Positions 16,015 to 25,206 of a stretch of 33,541 nt of DNA are shown here, one piece after another. Position numbers and translations under genes: made by a program. Position 1 is the first letter of the stretch, and the number at the start of each line of letters is the position of its first letter. The stretch lies in NCBI GenBank assembly GCA_902579605.1, contig CACHHD010000008.1, positions 1-33,541 on the forward strand, written 5' to 3'. Origin of the DNA: an uncultured Pelagibacteraceae bacterium. GTDB taxonomy: Bacteria; Pseudomonadota; Alphaproteobacteria; Pelagibacterales; Pelagibacteraceae. The notes under the pieces are model-generated. The model worked only from the letters and a program-made list of their open reading frames with translations, had not been told where the DNA came from and did not search any database.

Positions 16015-17466
16015 ATGTTAAATTCAATAAAAAAATATTCAAAAACTTTCTTTTTCAAAGTCCTTGTGGGCATAATTATATTACCCTTTTTATTTTGGGG
16101 AATGGGTGATGTATTTAGTGGAGGAAGTCAAAATGTAGTTGCAAAGATAGACTCAGAAAAAATAAGTACCCGCGATTTTATAAATTATTTAAATATTTTA
16201 AATTTGAGCGATCAAGAACGTAAAGATTTACCAGAAACTACTTTAGCCGAAAAAATTCTATCTGAATATATTGGTAAAAAAGTTCTTATTTTAGAATTAG
16301 AAGATTTGGACGTTGTTCTTGAGGATTCATCTCTCAAAGAATTGATCATAAATGATAAAACTTTTTTTAAAGAAAATAAATTTTCAAGAACAGAATATGA
16401 AAAATTTTTAATTACTAGTGGCTTGAACGCTGCTTTGTTTGAAAGTAATATGGCTGAGCAAGAAAAAAAACGACAGTTATTAAATTTTTTATCTGGAGGA
16501 ATTGAAATTCCTCATTTTCTAGTTCAACATGAGTTCAATAAAGAAAATCAAATAAAAAAAATAGAATTTATTAATTTAAAAAATTTATATAACAAACCAA
16601 TCTCAGAAAAAAAAATTGAGGAAGTTTTCAACAAAAACAAAGAATTTTTCACTGAAGATTTTAAAGATTTTAAATATGCAGAATTAACTCCTTTAAATAT
16701 AATTGGAGAAAATGAATATAATGAGAGCTTTTTTAACAAAATTAACCTAATCGAAAATGAAGTTTTAGATAATGTTGAATTTAATAAATTGGCTTCAGCT
16801 TATAATTTAAATATAAATAATACAGGACTTGTAAATAAAAAAAATAAAAATATAGACAAAAAAATTAGTACAAAATTAAATGAAAAAATCGTTGATCGAT
16901 TTTTTAAGATAAAACAACAAAATATTGTTGAATTTATTAACCTTGATAAAAAATATTTTATAGTTGAACTAACAAAAAAAACACTTATTCAAAAAGATAA
17001 AAACAGTAAAGAAGTCAGAGACTCTATCAAAGCTCAGATTAACATAGAAAATAAAATCACAGAAAACAGTAAATTAGCAAAAGATATTGCTGGTAAAAAA
17101 TTTACAAAATCAAATATGGAAATTTTTGCAAAAGAAAATAATCTTAATATTGATTCAATAACTTTAAATAATCTAGAAGATAACAATACATTTAGTCCTG
17201 GAGTTGTTAAAAGAATATTTGAAACAGATGATAAATCAATTAATTTAATTACTGATAATATGCTTAAAGATAATTTTATTATATATACAAAAGAAACTAA
17301 ACTACCAACGATAAAAAAACAAAATAAAGATTATGAAAATTTTAAATTAAAAGCAAAACTGAATCTTGCTAACTCAATCTACAATATCTATGACCTAAGT
17401 TTAAATAGAAAGTATAATGTCGAGATCAATAATAAAACTTTGAACCGTATAAAAAATTCTTTTTAA
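16015..17466 (+). CDS. PpiD/SurA-like periplasmic folding factor
   Basis: Membrane-anchored periplasmic chaperone of the PpiD/SurA N-terminal family. The 483 residues start with a short basic tail and one membrane helix (about 12-30, containing ILPFLFWGMGDVF), then VVAKIDSEKISTRDF (41-55), the typical start of the SurA_N chaperone domain, and a long Lys/Asn-rich periplasmic region. I cannot find the parvulin signature (HIL-type strand and GGDLG-like turn), and the protein is shorter than the roughly 600-plus residues of full PpiD. The isomerase domain is therefore degenerate or absent, and a chaperone role is more likely. The same anchor-first layout upstream of trpE is known in other Alphaproteobacteria. 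Its stop overlaps the trpE start (TAATG). Confidence 0.75.
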   Translation: MLNSIKKYSKTFFFKVLVGIIILPFLFWGMGDVFSGGSQNVVAKIDSEKISTRDFINYLNILNLSDQERKDLPETTLAEKILSEYIGKKVLILELEDLDVVLEDSSLKELIINDKTFFKENKFSRTEYEKFLITSGLNAALFESNMAEQEKKRQLLNFLSGGIEIPHFLVQHEFNKENQIKKIEFINLKNLYNKPISEKKIEEVFNKNKEFFTEDFKDFKYAELTPLNIIGENEYNESFFNKINLIENEVLDNVEFNKLASAYNLNINNTGLVNKKNKNIDKKISTKLNEKIVDRFFKIKQQNIVEFINLDKKYFIVELTKKTLIQKDKNSKEVRDSIKAQINIENKITENSKLAKDIAGKKFTKSNMEIFAKENNLNIDSITLNNLEDNNTFSPGVVKRIFETDDKSINLITDNMLKDNFIIYTKETKLPTIKKQNKDYENFKLKAKLNLANSIYNIYDLSLNRKYNVEINNKTLNRIKNSF

Positions 17467-21311: not shown

Positions 21312-21326
21312 GAACTTTTATAGAAC
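21312..21326 (-). promoter_or_regulatory. LexA operator (alphaproteobacterial SOS box)
   Basis: GAAC-N7-GAAC on the + strand reads GTTC-N7-GTTC on the - strand, which is exactly the direct-repeat LexA box described for Alphaproteobacteria. It ends 22 nt before the chosen lexA ATG and overlaps a TATAGA hexamer (21319-21324) that could be the -10, so LexA binding would block its own promoter. Location before lexA makes autoregulation very likely. Confidence 0.85.
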
Positions 21327-21332
21327 ATAGAT

Positions 21333-21347
21333 GTACGAGGTTTGTTC
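21333..21347 (+). promoter_or_regulatory. Second, imperfect LexA half-site pair over the lexA RBS
   Basis: GTAC-N7-GTTC differs by one base from the GTTC-N7-GTTC box. It begins 21 bp (two helical turns) after the start of the perfect box and covers the ribosome binding site. Two boxes on the same DNA face could bind LexA together; with one mismatch it could also be chance. Confidence 0.4.
21337..21340 (+). promoter_or_regulatory. lexA ribosome binding site
   Basis: GAGG lies 8 nt before the ATG at 21349 and decides the lexA start: the upstream in-frame ATG at 21331 has no such site and would add six residues absent from relatives. Confidence 0.65.
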
Positions 21348-21348
21348 T

Positions 21349-22023
21349 ATGCTTACAAAAAAACAAAAAAACTTATTAATTTTTATTAATAAAAAAATTA
21401 GATCCTCAGGTATTTCCCCGTCTTACGAAGAGATGAAAAACTCACTCAACTTGAAGTCGAAATCTGGTATTCACAGATTAATTAGCGCCTTGGAAGAAAG
21501 GGGTTTTGTAAAAAGATTAGCTCACAAAGCAAGAGCTTTGGAAGTAGTAAAACTCCCAGAAAATGCTAGTGCTAACGATATTTTTAATTCTTTTACTCCA
21601 AGCGTAATCAAAGGTGGTTTAGATAAATCAAAAAGTAACTCTTTTAAAGTTTCTGTGCTAGGAAGCATTGCAGCGGGCACCCCAATAGAAGCTATACAAC
21701 ATGAAGTTGATAAAGTTGCTCTACCAGAGGATTTGCAGAAAAATGGTGAATATTTTGGTTTAAAAGTTAAAGGTGACTCTATGATTGAAGCTGGAATAAA
21801 TAATGGTGACACAGTAATTATAAAAAAAACATCTACAGCTGACACAGGGCAAATTGCTGTAGTGCTAATTGATGAACAAGAAGCTACCCTTAAAAGAATA
21901 AGAAAAAAAGGAAACACAATTGCTTTAGAGGCTGCTAATAAAAATTACGATACTAAAATATACGCCTCAAATAGAATAAAAATCCAAGGAAGATTAATTT
22001 CTTTATATAGAAACTTTCACTAA
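21349..22023 (+). CDS. lexA: SOS repressor LexA
   Basis: Repressor of DNA-damage genes that cleaves itself when RecA filaments form. I start it at 21349 (224 residues) because MLTKKQKNLL is the family N-terminus and GAGG is correctly spaced. The in-frame ATG at 21331 lies within the operator region. The N-terminal winged helix-turn-helix (about 1-65) contains SYEEMKNSLNLKSKSGIHRLISALEERG as in alphaproteobacterial LexA. The cleavage bond is A109-G110 in GSIAAGTPIEA, and the catalytic dyad is S144 (KGDSMIEAG) and K182 (ATLKRI). A perfect GTTC-N7-GTTC-type box lies upstream, so it is autoregulated. gltX follows after 19 nt, suggesting a shared transcript. Confidence 0.96.
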   Translation: MLTKKQKNLLIFINKKIRSSGISPSYEEMKNSLNLKSKSGIHRLISALEERGFVKRLAHKARALEVVKLPENASANDIFNSFTPSVIKGGLDKSKSNSFKVSVLGSIAAGTPIEAIQHEVDKVALPEDLQKNGEYFGLKVKGDSMIEAGINNGDTVIIKKTSTADTGQIAVVLIDEQEATLKRIRKKGNTIALEAANKNYDTKIYASNRIKIQGRLISLYRNFH

Positions 22024-22042
22024 AATAGTCTAAAAATATTGA

Positions 22043-23434
22043 ATGTCTTTTAATTGTAGGTTTGCTCCATCCCCTACTGGTCCACTTCATATTGGAGGGG
22101 TCAGAACAGCGTTATTTAATTGGTTGTTGGCTAAGAAAAATAAAGGAAAGTATTTTTTGAGAATAGAAGATACTGATAAAGAAAGATCTAAGGACGAGTT
22201 TAAAAAACAAATTATTTCATCATTAGCGTGGTTAGGTATTGAATATGAGGGCGAAGAATATATTCAGTCAAAAAATATTTCTAAACATGTGGCTGTGGCG
22301 GAAGATCTTATAAAAAAAGGTTTTGCATACGCATGTTATTGCTCAGAGGAAGAAATAAATGAACAAAAAGAAAAATGTAAAAAACAAGGAATACCGTATG
22401 TATACAATAGAAAATGGAGAGACGCTGAAGATCTTAAAATACCAAAAGATATAAAACCAGTAATAAGGTTCAAAAGTAAAATCTCTGGCAATACAATTAT
22501 AAAAGATTTGGTTCAAGGAGAAAGAAATATATCAAACTCTACTATTGAAGATTTTGTCATATTAAGAAAAGATAAATCTCCTACCTATCAGCTATCCGCA
22601 ACTGTAGATGACCATGAAATGAAAATAACTCACGTGATAAGAGGTGATGATCATATGATTAATTCTTTTAAGCAAAAACAAATTTACGATGCAATGGAAT
22701 GGGAAGTTCCAAAATTTGCTCATATACCTTTAATTCATAGTGAGAAAGGTAAAAAACTTTCCAAGAGAGATAATGCATCGACAATAAATGATTATATAAA
22801 AATTGGTATCATTCCAGAAGCTTTAAGAAATTATTTATTAAGATTAGGTTGGTCCTACAAAGATAAAGAAATTTTTTCACTTAAAGAAAGTATAGAGTTA
22901 TTTAATTTTGAGGGAATAGGTAAATCACCCTCTAAATTAGATATGTCTAGAATTTTATCAATAAATGAAACTTATATAAAATCTATGAACGAAAAAGAAT
23001 TGTTCGATAAACTGTTAGAATTTTCTAATAAATTCAAAATAAATATTGATAAATCTAAAGAAAGCATAATATTAAAGTCATTAAATTTTTTAAAAAATAA
23101 AGCAAAAACACTCGAAGATATCTATAATAACTCAGGCTATATACTTAATGATAACTTAAAGATATCAAGTGAGGATAAATCTTTAATTGATAAAAAATCT
23201 CAAGATATTATCAAAAATTTTATCGAAGACTTTGATGCATTAAAAGATTTGAATAAGACGAGCTTAGAGCAAATCATTAAAAATTTGATTGATAAACACA
23301 AAACTAACTTTAAAGGAGTTGGGCAACCATTAAGAATTGGCTTGGTTGGTACAAAGTTTGGGCCTGGCATTTATGACATTATTTTATCTTTAGATAAAGC
23401 TACTGTAATAAACAGGTTAAAAAAATTAGTGTAA
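22043..23434 (+). CDS. gltX: Glutamyl-tRNA synthetase
   Basis: Class I synthetase charging tRNA-Glu (and, in many bacteria lacking GlnRS, tRNA-Gln, later amidated by GatCAB). The 463 residues have the HIGH-type motif PLHIGG (14-19), the KMSKS-type motif KKLSKRDNA (237-245), a CYCSEEE segment at 98-104 and the C-terminal anticodon-binding helical domain with GPGIYDIILSL. Length is normal. It follows lexA by 19 nt with no visible terminator or promoter, and its stop overlaps the start of the nuclease gene (TAATG). A housekeeping synthetase thus seems to share the SOS-controlled transcript, unless a promoter lies inside lexA. Confidence 0.96.
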   Translation: MSFNCRFAPSPTGPLHIGGVRTALFNWLLAKKNKGKYFLRIEDTDKERSKDEFKKQIISSLAWLGIEYEGEEYIQSKNISKHVAVAEDLIKKGFAYACYCSEEEINEQKEKCKKQGIPYVYNRKWRDAEDLKIPKDIKPVIRFKSKISGNTIIKDLVQGERNISNSTIEDFVILRKDKSPTYQLSATVDDHEMKITHVIRGDDHMINSFKQKQIYDAMEWEVPKFAHIPLIHSEKGKKLSKRDNASTINDYIKIGIIPEALRNYLLRLGWSYKDKEIFSLKESIELFNFEGIGKSPSKLDMSRILSINETYIKSMNEKELFDKLLEFSNKFKINIDKSKESIILKSLNFLKNKAKTLEDIYNNSGYILNDNLKISSEDKSLIDKKSQDIIKNFIEDFDALKDLNKTSLEQIIKNLIDKHKTNFKGVGQPLRIGLVGTKFGPGIYDIILSLDKATVINRLKKLV

Positions 23435-24096
23435 TGTCGAAACCATATTTATTTAGTCCAAGTGAATTTGCGTTTGGATACTCAGGTTGCAAAAGATGTT
23501 ACTACGATCTAAAGGTAAACGATGTAAGAATAAATTTTGGTTTTCCGACTATATTTTCAAAGATAGATTCAATTCAAAAAAAATTTTATCACAATAAACC
23601 CTCAAAATTTTTAAATTCTAATAAAGTGCCTGAGGGAATAATAAAAACAGATTACGCCAAGCTACATAAATCTGAAGTCCTTTATGATCATAAAGATAGA
23701 GCATTTCAATTAAGAGGTAAAATCGACGCTTATATTGATCATAAAGATTTTTTTTCAATAATAGATTTTAAGGTAACAAACATAAATGAAAAAAAATCAT
23801 TAACATATATGACACAATTAAATAGTTATGCAATTATGTTTGAAAAACCAGATCAAAACTATTTAAAATTAAATCCAGTAAAAAACCTAGGAATTTTTTG
23901 TTTTGAGCCAGAAAATTTAATATTAAAAAATACACCAGCACTTGAAATGTCTACACAATATTTTGAAATTAAAAGAAATGATGATTTATACTTAAAATTT
24001 ATAACTGACGTAATAGATTTTTTAGAAAGTGATATCCCAGGTTTAAATAACGAATGTAGTCTTTGTAATTTAAAATTACAGACTTTTCCTAAGTGA
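23434..24096 (+). CDS. PD-(D/E)XK nuclease-superfamily protein with two CxxC pairs
   Basis: A 220-residue protein of the Cas4/RecB-like nuclease superfamily, judged from the core LRGKIDAYID-x(n)-FSIIDFKVT. D98 (in GKID), D111 and K113 (in IDFK) fit the metal-binding D...D-x-K triad, and QLNSY (128-132) resembles RecB motif Q-x-x-x-Y. C19 and C22 (GCKRCYY) near the N-terminus and C208/C211 (CSLC) at the C-terminus could hold an iron-sulfur cluster or zinc, as cysteines flanking the core do in Cas4 and AddB. No helicase or cas gene is adjacent. It starts inside the gltX stop (TAATG), downstream of lexA, so it is probably co-transcribed and damage-responsive. Its last 21 nt overlap lpxB. Substrate and role are unknown. 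Confidence 0.72.
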   Translation: MSKPYLFSPSEFAFGYSGCKRCYYDLKVNDVRINFGFPTIFSKIDSIQKKFYHNKPSKFLNSNKVPEGIIKTDYAKLHKSEVLYDHKDRAFQLRGKIDAYIDHKDFFSIIDFKVTNINEKKSLTYMTQLNSYAIMFEKPDQNYLKLNPVKNLGIFCFEPENLILKNTPALEMSTQYFEIKRNDDLYLKFITDVIDFLESDIPGLNNECSLCNLKLQTFPK

Positions 24097-25206
24097 GTCC
24101 GCAGCCAGGTCGGTTGGCAGGTTTTTGGTTCTAAAACTTTCTAAAACTTTTTCAGTATTAGAAATTTGTTTTTTTATTTTATTTTGATCTTCTAAAAAAC
24201 TAGAAACTAATTTATAAATTTCTTTAGGGTTACATTTTGATTGTAATAATTCAGGAATAATCATCTGTCCTGCAGCTATATTTAATATATTTGCATATTT
24301 TATTTTTACTAACATTTTTACAATTAAAAAATTTATAAAATTCATCTTATAAATAATTATTGAAGGTATTTTTCTTTTACTTATTTCAAGAGAAATGGTA
24401 CCAGATTTTGAAACAGCAAAAATTGATTTTTTTAGTATGTGATCTTTAATTTTATCATCAGAAATAATTTCTGTATTATTAATTTTGCTTTTACTAATTA
24501 TTTTTTCTAAATTAGATCTTTGGGCTTTTGTAGTGTGAAAAACATATAAAAAGTCTTCATACTTTTCATTCATGAGTTTAATAAACTGCAATAATATTGG
24601 AGTAAGTTTTTTTACTTCGCTATCTCTACTTCCTGGAAAAACGGAAATTATTGCTTTATTTTTTTTGATAACTTGATTAAGTTCAATCTTGTCTTCCTTG
24701 TTGTTTTCTAAAAGTGGATGGCCAACAAACTCACAACTTACATTTTCCTTTTCCCAATATTTTTTTTCAAATTTGAATAGAAGCAAAATATGATCGATAA
24801 ATTTTTTAATTTTCTTTACTCTTCCCTCTCTCCACACCCAAACCTGTGGGGCTACAAAATGTATTGTTTTTATATTAGGTGAATTATTTTTTACCTTTTC
24901 AGCAACTCGTAATGTGAAATCTGGACTGTCTACTGAAAACAAAATATCTGGTTTAAACTCTAATATTTTTTGAACAGTTTCATTTATTTTTCTCTTAATT
25001 TTAAATAAGTTTAGTAATACCCGAGTAAAACCCAAGTATGTTACTTCGCTAAGTTTTGAGATTGAATTTATTCCTAAAGATTTAAGTTCTTCTCCACCCA
25101 AACAAAGATAGGTGATGCTTGGGTCTTTGATTTTTAGTTTTGAAATGATTTTAGCGGCTAATTTGTCGCCTGAAGGTTCGCCTGTTAAAATAAAGATTTT
25201 CTTCAT
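24076..25206 (-). CDS. lpxB: Lipid A disaccharide synthase
   Basis: GT19 glycosyltransferase joining 2,3-diacylglucosamine-1-phosphate and its UDP form into the lipid A disaccharide at the inner membrane. The 376 residues show the N-terminal LTGEPSGDKLAAKII motif, SVDSPDF (71-77 region), FVAPQVWVWREGRVKKI, CEFVGHPLLE and the UDP-binding VFPGSRDSEV strand. Length is standard. It is the last gene of the leftward lpx operon, starts in a 4-nt overlap with the PQQ dehydrogenase gene, and its stop lies inside the convergent nuclease gene (21-nt overlap). Confidence 0.95.
   Translation of the reverse strand: MKKIFILTGEPSGDKLAAKIISKLKIKDPSITYLCLGGEELKSLGINSISKLSEVTYLGFTRVLLNLFKIKRKINETVQKILEFKPDILFSVDSPDFTLRVAEKVKNNSPNIKTIHFVAPQVWVWREGRVKKIKKFIDHILLLFKFEKKYWEKENVSCEFVGHPLLENNKEDKIELNQVIKKNKAIISVFPGSRDSEVKKLTPILLQFIKLMNEKYEDFLYVFHTTKAQRSNLEKIISKSKINNTEIISDDKIKDHILKKSIFAVSKSGTISLEISKRKIPSIIIYKMNFINFLIVKMLVKIKYANILNIAAGQMIIPELLQSKCNPKEIYKLVSSFLEDQNKIKKQISNTEKVLESFRTKNLPTDLAADSLRKSL
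24104..24126 (+). terminator. Possible intrinsic terminator of the lexA-gltX-nuclease unit
   Basis: A GC-rich inverted repeat GCCAG-GTCGG-TTGGC (24104-24118; five pairs including one G-U) is followed by AGG and five T's, 8 nt after the nuclease stop. It is the most GC-rich spot nearby. It lies within the 3' end of lpxB, so the bases also code for protein, and the stem is short; tentative. Confidence 0.3.

Follow-up and report, generated by a model that had tools for sequence, protein, structure and literature searches.

A putatively LexA-controlled lexA gene, a conserved element ahead of gltX and a variable nuclease slot in Pelagibacteraceae

The question raised by this locus is whether a LexA operator ahead of lexA also places gltX, the gene for glutamate--tRNA ligase, and the nuclease gene behind it under the control of DNA damage in an uncultured Pelagibacteraceae bacterium that we take to belong to SAR11, a very abundant group of streamlined ocean bacteria with small regulons. 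The window, by which we mean the whole stretch of 33,541 nucleotides (nt) that was analysed, is contig 8 (CACHHD010000008.1) of assembly GCA_902579605.1, a genome of 974,097 bases in 29 contigs that is 80.5% complete. Its plus strand carries the order ppiD-trpE-trpG-trpD-trpC-lexA-gltX-nuclease, facing lpxB (ppiD, trpE, trpG and trpD were named by eye). An initial annotation, made from the sequence, had read the last three genes of this run as one unit under an SOS box. On balance, and with modest confidence, we favour another explanation: LexA would control its own gene, gltX and the nuclease would most likely be expressed constitutively, with transcripts from lexA reading into them after damage, and the nuclease would be a Cas4/AddB-type enzyme that occupies a slot between gltX and lpxB.

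The first part of this explanation concerns the box itself. A perfect GTTC-N7-GTTC match (GTTCTATAAAAGTTC) lies on the minus strand at 21312-21326, 22 nt ahead of the start of lexA (21349-22023, plus strand, 224 amino acids), as had been annotated, and each lexA leader that could be read has such a box: 26/26 loci in the genus of the window (g1), 25/25 in the main sister genus (g6), 5/5 in further sister genera of the same family (g5, g7 and g8) and 14/14 (4/4 and 10/10) in a second family, from which 18 lexA loci were fetched and four without a readable lexA were excluded. The lexA product, encoded in the same genome as the box, has both expected domains, DNA-binding and S24 peptidase (PF01726 and PF00717, both over cut-off; TIGR00498, 166.2 bits against a cut-off of 110.95). 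We take the lexA box as real because of its position and conservation and not because of its count. The bare pattern occurs twice in the window against 0.49 expected, a number reached in 8 of 100 shuffles, and at 10 sites genome-wide against 14 for a reversed control; in 32 of the 37 genomes compared it showed no excess over that control, and box number was rejected as weak evidence for this reason. When eight sites in the genome of the window were read in context, five (L002-L006) fell within a reading frame, one (L001) overlapped a gene start after a RuvC-like gene and one (L007) was that of lexA. The eighth (G000:C10:4103-4117; L008:1501-1515) is a box 92 nt before the ribonucleotide reductase alpha gene, which is a candidate for a further LexA target. 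A second perfect match in the window, at 16522-16536, lies within the ppiD-like gene and is probably due to chance.

A LexA-type box also stands directly ahead of umuD in a umuD-umuC operon of the same genome (G000:C13:16499-16513; L075:1019-2675), and among the matches listed a box was found just before umuD in 10/10 genomes, all of the second family. Taken together, position, conservation and domain content support LexA self-control through the box at 21312-21326, by which LexA would bind the box and repress its own promoter. A GTTC-N7-GTTC box before lexA is what we take to be a trait of alphaproteobacterial LexA autoregulation, and the locus resembles that system in the box type, its site before lexA, the domain make-up of LexA and the additional box before umuD; it seems to differ from the wider alphaproteobacterial gene order in that gltX closely follows lexA throughout the family searched. 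Many same-genus loci have, between the operator and the probable lexA start, a further in-frame ATG, at 21331 in the window, which would add six amino acids to LexA (21331-21348). In SAR11, recA, lexA, umuD and umuC were up during infection by one phage, according to the main text of that report (PMC12753301), and in an earlier array study of late iron stress lexA is grouped with recA and mucA (PMC2864753).

How far such control would extend downstream depends on the run of genes behind lexA. Profile searches confirmed the identities of LexA, GltX and the PD-(D/E)XK protein. The end of lexA at 22023 and the start of gltX (22043-23434, plus strand, 463 amino acids; TIGR00464, 474.2 bits against 289.95) leave a spacer of 19 nt, and the gltX stop codon TAA (23432-23434) shares one base with the nuclease start codon at 23434, so that the spacer and the TAATG overlap are both as first described. 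The absence of a terminator between these genes also held up, as a scan of the stretch returned no terminator-like site between lexA, gltX and the nuclease. Two overlapping terminator-like sites at 24102-24118 (plus strand) point weakly to a hairpin directly 3' of the nuclease stop, as 0.9 such sites are expected by chance in shuffles of the scanned stretch. Being co-directional, terminator-free and joined by short conserved spacers, the three genes make up a plausible operon run; the lexA transcript probably reads into gltX and the nuclease gene, and the start-stop overlap suggests that the nuclease is translationally coupled to gltX. The box, the short spacers and the lack of an internal terminator-like site would also suit a single LexA-controlled transcript through which damage strongly induces gltX and the nuclease, the latter being an SOS repair enzyme that replaces missing recombination nucleases. 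We regard this as unlikely, for reasons that lie in the history of the gene order and in the lexA-gltX junction.

The adjacency of lexA and gltX is widespread. In the genus of the window gltX follows lexA in all 26 genomes in which both genes were found, and the two lie within about 75 nt of each other in 30/30 other genomes of the family that were searched. Throughout g6 (25/25 genomes) gltX is followed directly by convergent lpxB, without a nuclease, and in g5 and g7 the citrate synthase gene gltA comes after gltX in the four loci read (three of the four confirmed by Pfam). The second family has a distant gltX (about 35% identical) located elsewhere, and a gltA-like gene follows lexA in its 14 readable loci (one confirmed by Pfam, the others by eye). 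Because of these gene orders we consider trpC-lexA-gltX-gltA to be an old synteny with losses; judged by gene order, the coupling of lexA to gltX is inherited and the nuclease is the newcomer. The coupling of lexA to a tRNA synthetase gene that had been annotated is thus old synteny, and the g6 genomes, which have lexA-gltX and no nuclease there, also speak against the single damage-induced transcript. In Table 7 of a 2008 paper on Sargasso Sea contigs, lexA stands next to trpC and behind it 92 times (PMC2395257); these contigs are like the present locus in that lexA adjoins trpC, and unlike it in that the main text of that paper has no occurrence of gltX. Among the matches listed from the open-access literature, we recognised no study of lexA-gltX-nuclease linkage or of SAR11 start sites.

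An indication that gltX is under control of its own comes from the junction with lexA. An element at 22000-22033 (plus strand), consisting of TCTTTATATAGAAACTT and then a core, AAATAGTCTAA, at 22023-22033, extends across the stop codon of lexA into the leader of gltX and is invariant or nearly so across 51 loci of g1 and g6, despite GltX itself being only about 65% identical between the two genera; the trpD-trpC junction, used as a control, has no such conserved block. When amino acid content was controlled for, synonymous diversity in the last eight codons of lexA was only 0.068 in g1, where 0.394 was expected, and 0.082 in g6, where the expected value was 0.401, and none of 20,000 resamplings was as low in either genus. 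No synonymous constraint was seen in two mid-gene lexA blocks. In the second family a core of the form AAAT(A/C)GT(T/C)TA is kept in all 14 readable loci (L071-L074, L271-L275, L278 and L280-L283), where it stands 10-15 nt before the start of gltA; in the window it stands 10 nt before gltX. The 3' end of lexA differs in that family and the distance from the core to the lexA stop varies. Since the core is kept before gltA at a variable distance from the lexA stop, the element seems to belong to the downstream gene and not to lexA coding. The argument draws on the synonymous sites and on the fact that the second family has kept the core, and on these grounds the element is most likely a separate promoter or regulatory site for gltX; a promoter with a very short leader and a hexamer of the form TAnnnT would be our first guess.

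Several results weigh against this interpretation. The junction is not the only place near a gene end where synonymous diversity is low: the first ten codons of lexA, directly behind the operator, are also low in g1 (0.115 against 0.330, P 0.00015), those of g6 being not clearly low (0.294 against 0.356, P 0.13). By plain identity the gltX junction (0.748) barely exceeds the leaders of trpG (0.735) and secG (0.709), and the gltX leader ranks second, behind the lexA operator, of the 14 leaders compared (seven more were left out as having too few sequences). Among the matches listed from a sigma-70 consensus scan, which returned 18 sites against 15.7 expected, none fell in the junction element. 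Nor is the core over-represented in the genome (9 sites against 26 for a reversed control), and a general promoter motif was rejected on that basis; an RNA hairpin was likewise rejected, the single-strand fold being unremarkable (z 0.88). The element may instead act as a signal for translation, as a place of RNA processing or as a site of another kind, such as one for a protein.

The reason to expect separate control is that gltX, which is needed at all times and was found as a single copy in the genome of the window, must be expressed while LexA is bound, and the element fits this expectation. The element and the constant need for this one gltX count against strong induction of gltX as part of a damage response. 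The main text of the phage-infection report also gives the complete SOS system as consisting of recA, lexA, umuD and umuC, and the terms 'gltx' and 'glutamyl' are absent from that text, its tables aside and the gene order of its host unchecked (PMC12753301). Of the single lexA-gltX-nuclease transcript in the initial annotation, the run of genes remains plausible; the conserved junction element looks like a separate promoter or regulatory site, and a separate strong promoter before gltX is what the annotation itself had named as incompatible with it. Under the explanation that we favour, the element most likely gives gltX its own promoter or other control, and the nuclease would have steady basal expression at the level of gltX, to which transcripts reading through from lexA would add once DNA damage leads to LexA cleavage. 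The LexA switch is real and old, and the conserved signal behind it suggests that gltX and the nuclease may not be simple damage-response genes. An element after lexA that is kept before gltX or gltA offers a concrete case in which to study how an essential gene stays active beside a repressed one.

The nuclease itself (23434-24096, plus strand, 220 amino acids) was classified from motifs and a predicted fold. It scores just over the gathering threshold of Pfam PDDEXK_1 (PF12705, 25.1 bits against 22), and D98, D111-x-K113, Q128-x3-Y132 and the cysteines C19, C22, C208 and C211 are invariant in 21/21 aligned sequences. An AlphaFold2 model of the protein (mean pLDDT 88.0, pTM 0.84) had as its best solved matches Cas4 (7mi5; Z 13.9 over 176 residues, root-mean-square deviation 4.1), the AdnA nuclease domain (Z 12.8), SSO0001 (4ic1; Foldseek E 4.5e-6), human Exo5 (Z 10.5) and phage exonucleases; a sequence search of solved structures gave nothing useful (best E 0.44). 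From motifs and fold we infer a RecB/Cas4-class PD-(D/E)XK enzyme, a Cas4/AddB-type DNA exonuclease, which bears out the Cas4/RecB-like assignment made initially. The protein, which we call type B, is like the Cas4/AddB-AdnA/Exo5 class in its catalytic motif set, QxxxY, four invariant cysteines and predicted fold, and unlike it in being short and stand-alone, without a helicase domain. The CRISPR Cas4 model TIGR00372 fell short of its cut-off (17.5 bits against 65), the cysteines, candidate ligands of a 4Fe-4S cluster, are paired two and two with a CxxC near each end, unlike the usual Cas4 layout, and no cas1 or cas2 was recognised by eye among the 41 open reading frames of the window. AddB identity does not apply either, as the protein has 220 residues against the 1024 positions of model TIGR02786. 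In a comparison of the window with 15 named slot loci and of these with one another, the ratio of non-synonymous to synonymous divergence (dN/dS) had a median of 0.083 for the nuclease (103 of 120 pairs used, 17 being dropped for very low or high dS), 0.071 for gltX and 0.013 for lexA, without internal stops; type B at this position is under strong purifying selection.

The place that it occupies is variable. The far border is lpxB (24076-25206, minus strand), which is convergent and whose 3' end overlaps the end of the nuclease gene. Among 28 same-genus genomes located through gltX alone, 22 carry at the slot a different nuclease of 255 amino acids (type A) and three, the window included, carry type B; in these 25 the gene lies on the gltX strand, with its start at -4 to 0 nt relative to the stop of gltX. 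The remaining three have type A inverted (G007), an island facing gltX (G013) or lpxB directly (G024, in which pieces of type A lie elsewhere in the genome). A wider tally of 60 distinct same-genus loci includes those fetched via searches for A or B, with L132 and L076 belonging to g1. Type B occupied the slot in 15 of 33 named loci, a set that overlaps the unnamed one, and shared one base with gltX in 15 of 16 slot-B loci, window included, abutting it in the sixteenth. No type A match was found in seven genomes with type B at the slot, several of them incomplete. The two types share the slot, the coupling to gltX and the motif layout and are homologous by profile comparison (97.3% probability, E 1.9e-11, 204 columns); they are unlike in length and are only about 20% identical. 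A comparison of linkage across related genomes, as called for initially, thus gives a mixed result, the nuclease abutting gltX in 25/28 genomes of the genus and in 0/25 of g6, with variable slot content. We propose that the nuclease entered a variable gltX-lpxB slot and that one lineage has type B where most of the genus has type A. The slot is a natural experiment in which a nuclease has been swapped in place for a distant relative.

An in-place A or B abutting gltX can mean either selection for expression context, which the uniform coupling to gltX favours, or simple exchange through conserved flanks, which is favoured by islands in the slot. Four same-genus loci hold there a distant B homologue facing gltX together with an MT-A70-type methyltransferase (by Pfam in two, a look-alike in two), and some also a BglII-type endonuclease or a ResIII-type helicase. 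In L285:5374-7362 and L171:9598-10810, an MT-A70 methyltransferase and a BglII-type endonuclease (by Pfam in L285, by likeness in L171) occupy the slot with a distant type-B nuclease nearby, and this content looks like a restriction-modification island. The slot could then be a small gene-exchange or defence spot and the nuclease a defence or mobile-element gene transcribed behind gltX, its proximity to lexA being meaningless for repair. The islands are in keeping with this, as are type A relatives on eight viral contigs, a PHROG match of the window B (E 2.5e-8) and the ATP-dependent DNA ligase genes that adjoin B homologues elsewhere. It is opposed by the co-directional, start-stop-coupled form being the rule and by the purifying selection on type B; moreover, neither the window B nor one type A protein had a match in 50,697 phage records (tblastn), and no type B relative was confirmed on viral contigs. 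We hold this second reading as a tentative possibility and, on the whole, doubt it. The tight junctions shared by both nuclease types might also point to a translation-linked or RNA task with GltX, the translational coupling being the point. This seems highly improbable, as motifs and predicted fold place the protein among DNA exonucleases, the 25 g6 genomes have no nuclease at this place and tight overlaps are common in streamlined genomes.

Whether either nuclease meets a general need in repair can be judged from its distribution. Among 397 genomes of the order, many of them incomplete, the B profile matched 61 (32 of them below E 1e-17, the other 29 being weak matches in genomes that all had a type A match too) and the A profile 54, one genome being in both the 54 and the 32. 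Either type was found in 85/397 and neither matched in 312/397, so the suggestion that the nuclease fills in for reduced recombination machinery does not hold as a general need. The repair-unit reading is further weakened by the occurrence of the same nuclease families inverted in the slot, in restriction-modification islands and beside ligase genes elsewhere. On the other side, two distantly related Cas4-type nucleases abut gltX in the same place, as if the position were selected, and AddB (TIGR02786) was found in 0/61 genomes, that of the window included, 16 of which are at least 90% complete; the control search gave a match in 6/14 genomes, over cut-off in one. Both points suit the damage-induced single transcript discussed above. 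In a bolder version of our explanation, the old lexA-gltX unit of this one genus would have acquired a Cas4/AddB-type nuclease on two or more occasions, each time as a final gene translationally coupled to the rest, damage-boosted in cells in which AddB is not found and tied to the sole gltX, with the junction switch setting its basal level; we judge this quite unlikely. Should the nuclease be boosted by damage, it would bring end processing into the SOS system of recA, lexA and umuDC given for HTCC1062 in the main text of the infection report (PMC12753301), and would bear on the handling of broken DNA in cells without detectable AddB.

In several genomes the genes for B homologues are found away from the slot, next to one for an ATP-dependent DNA ligase. 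In L164:5989-8624, L165:5998-9311, L166:2544-6219 and L078:6750-10173, a B nuclease and the ligase occur together with small proteins that could not be clearly placed in Pfam, as a recurring SAR11 cassette that may be a repair or mobile module. In L164:4074-6645 the B nuclease follows umuDC by 231 nt, with recA nearby on the other strand. This was not counted as an independent SOS linkage, since the gap seems to hold a small opposite-strand frame and has promoter-like sites, six of which were counted on the two strands of a 501-nt stretch where 2.7 were expected. The named records closest by nuclease gene come from isolates of uncultured Pelagibacteraceae and from one metagenome-assembled genome of Candidatus Pelagibacter.

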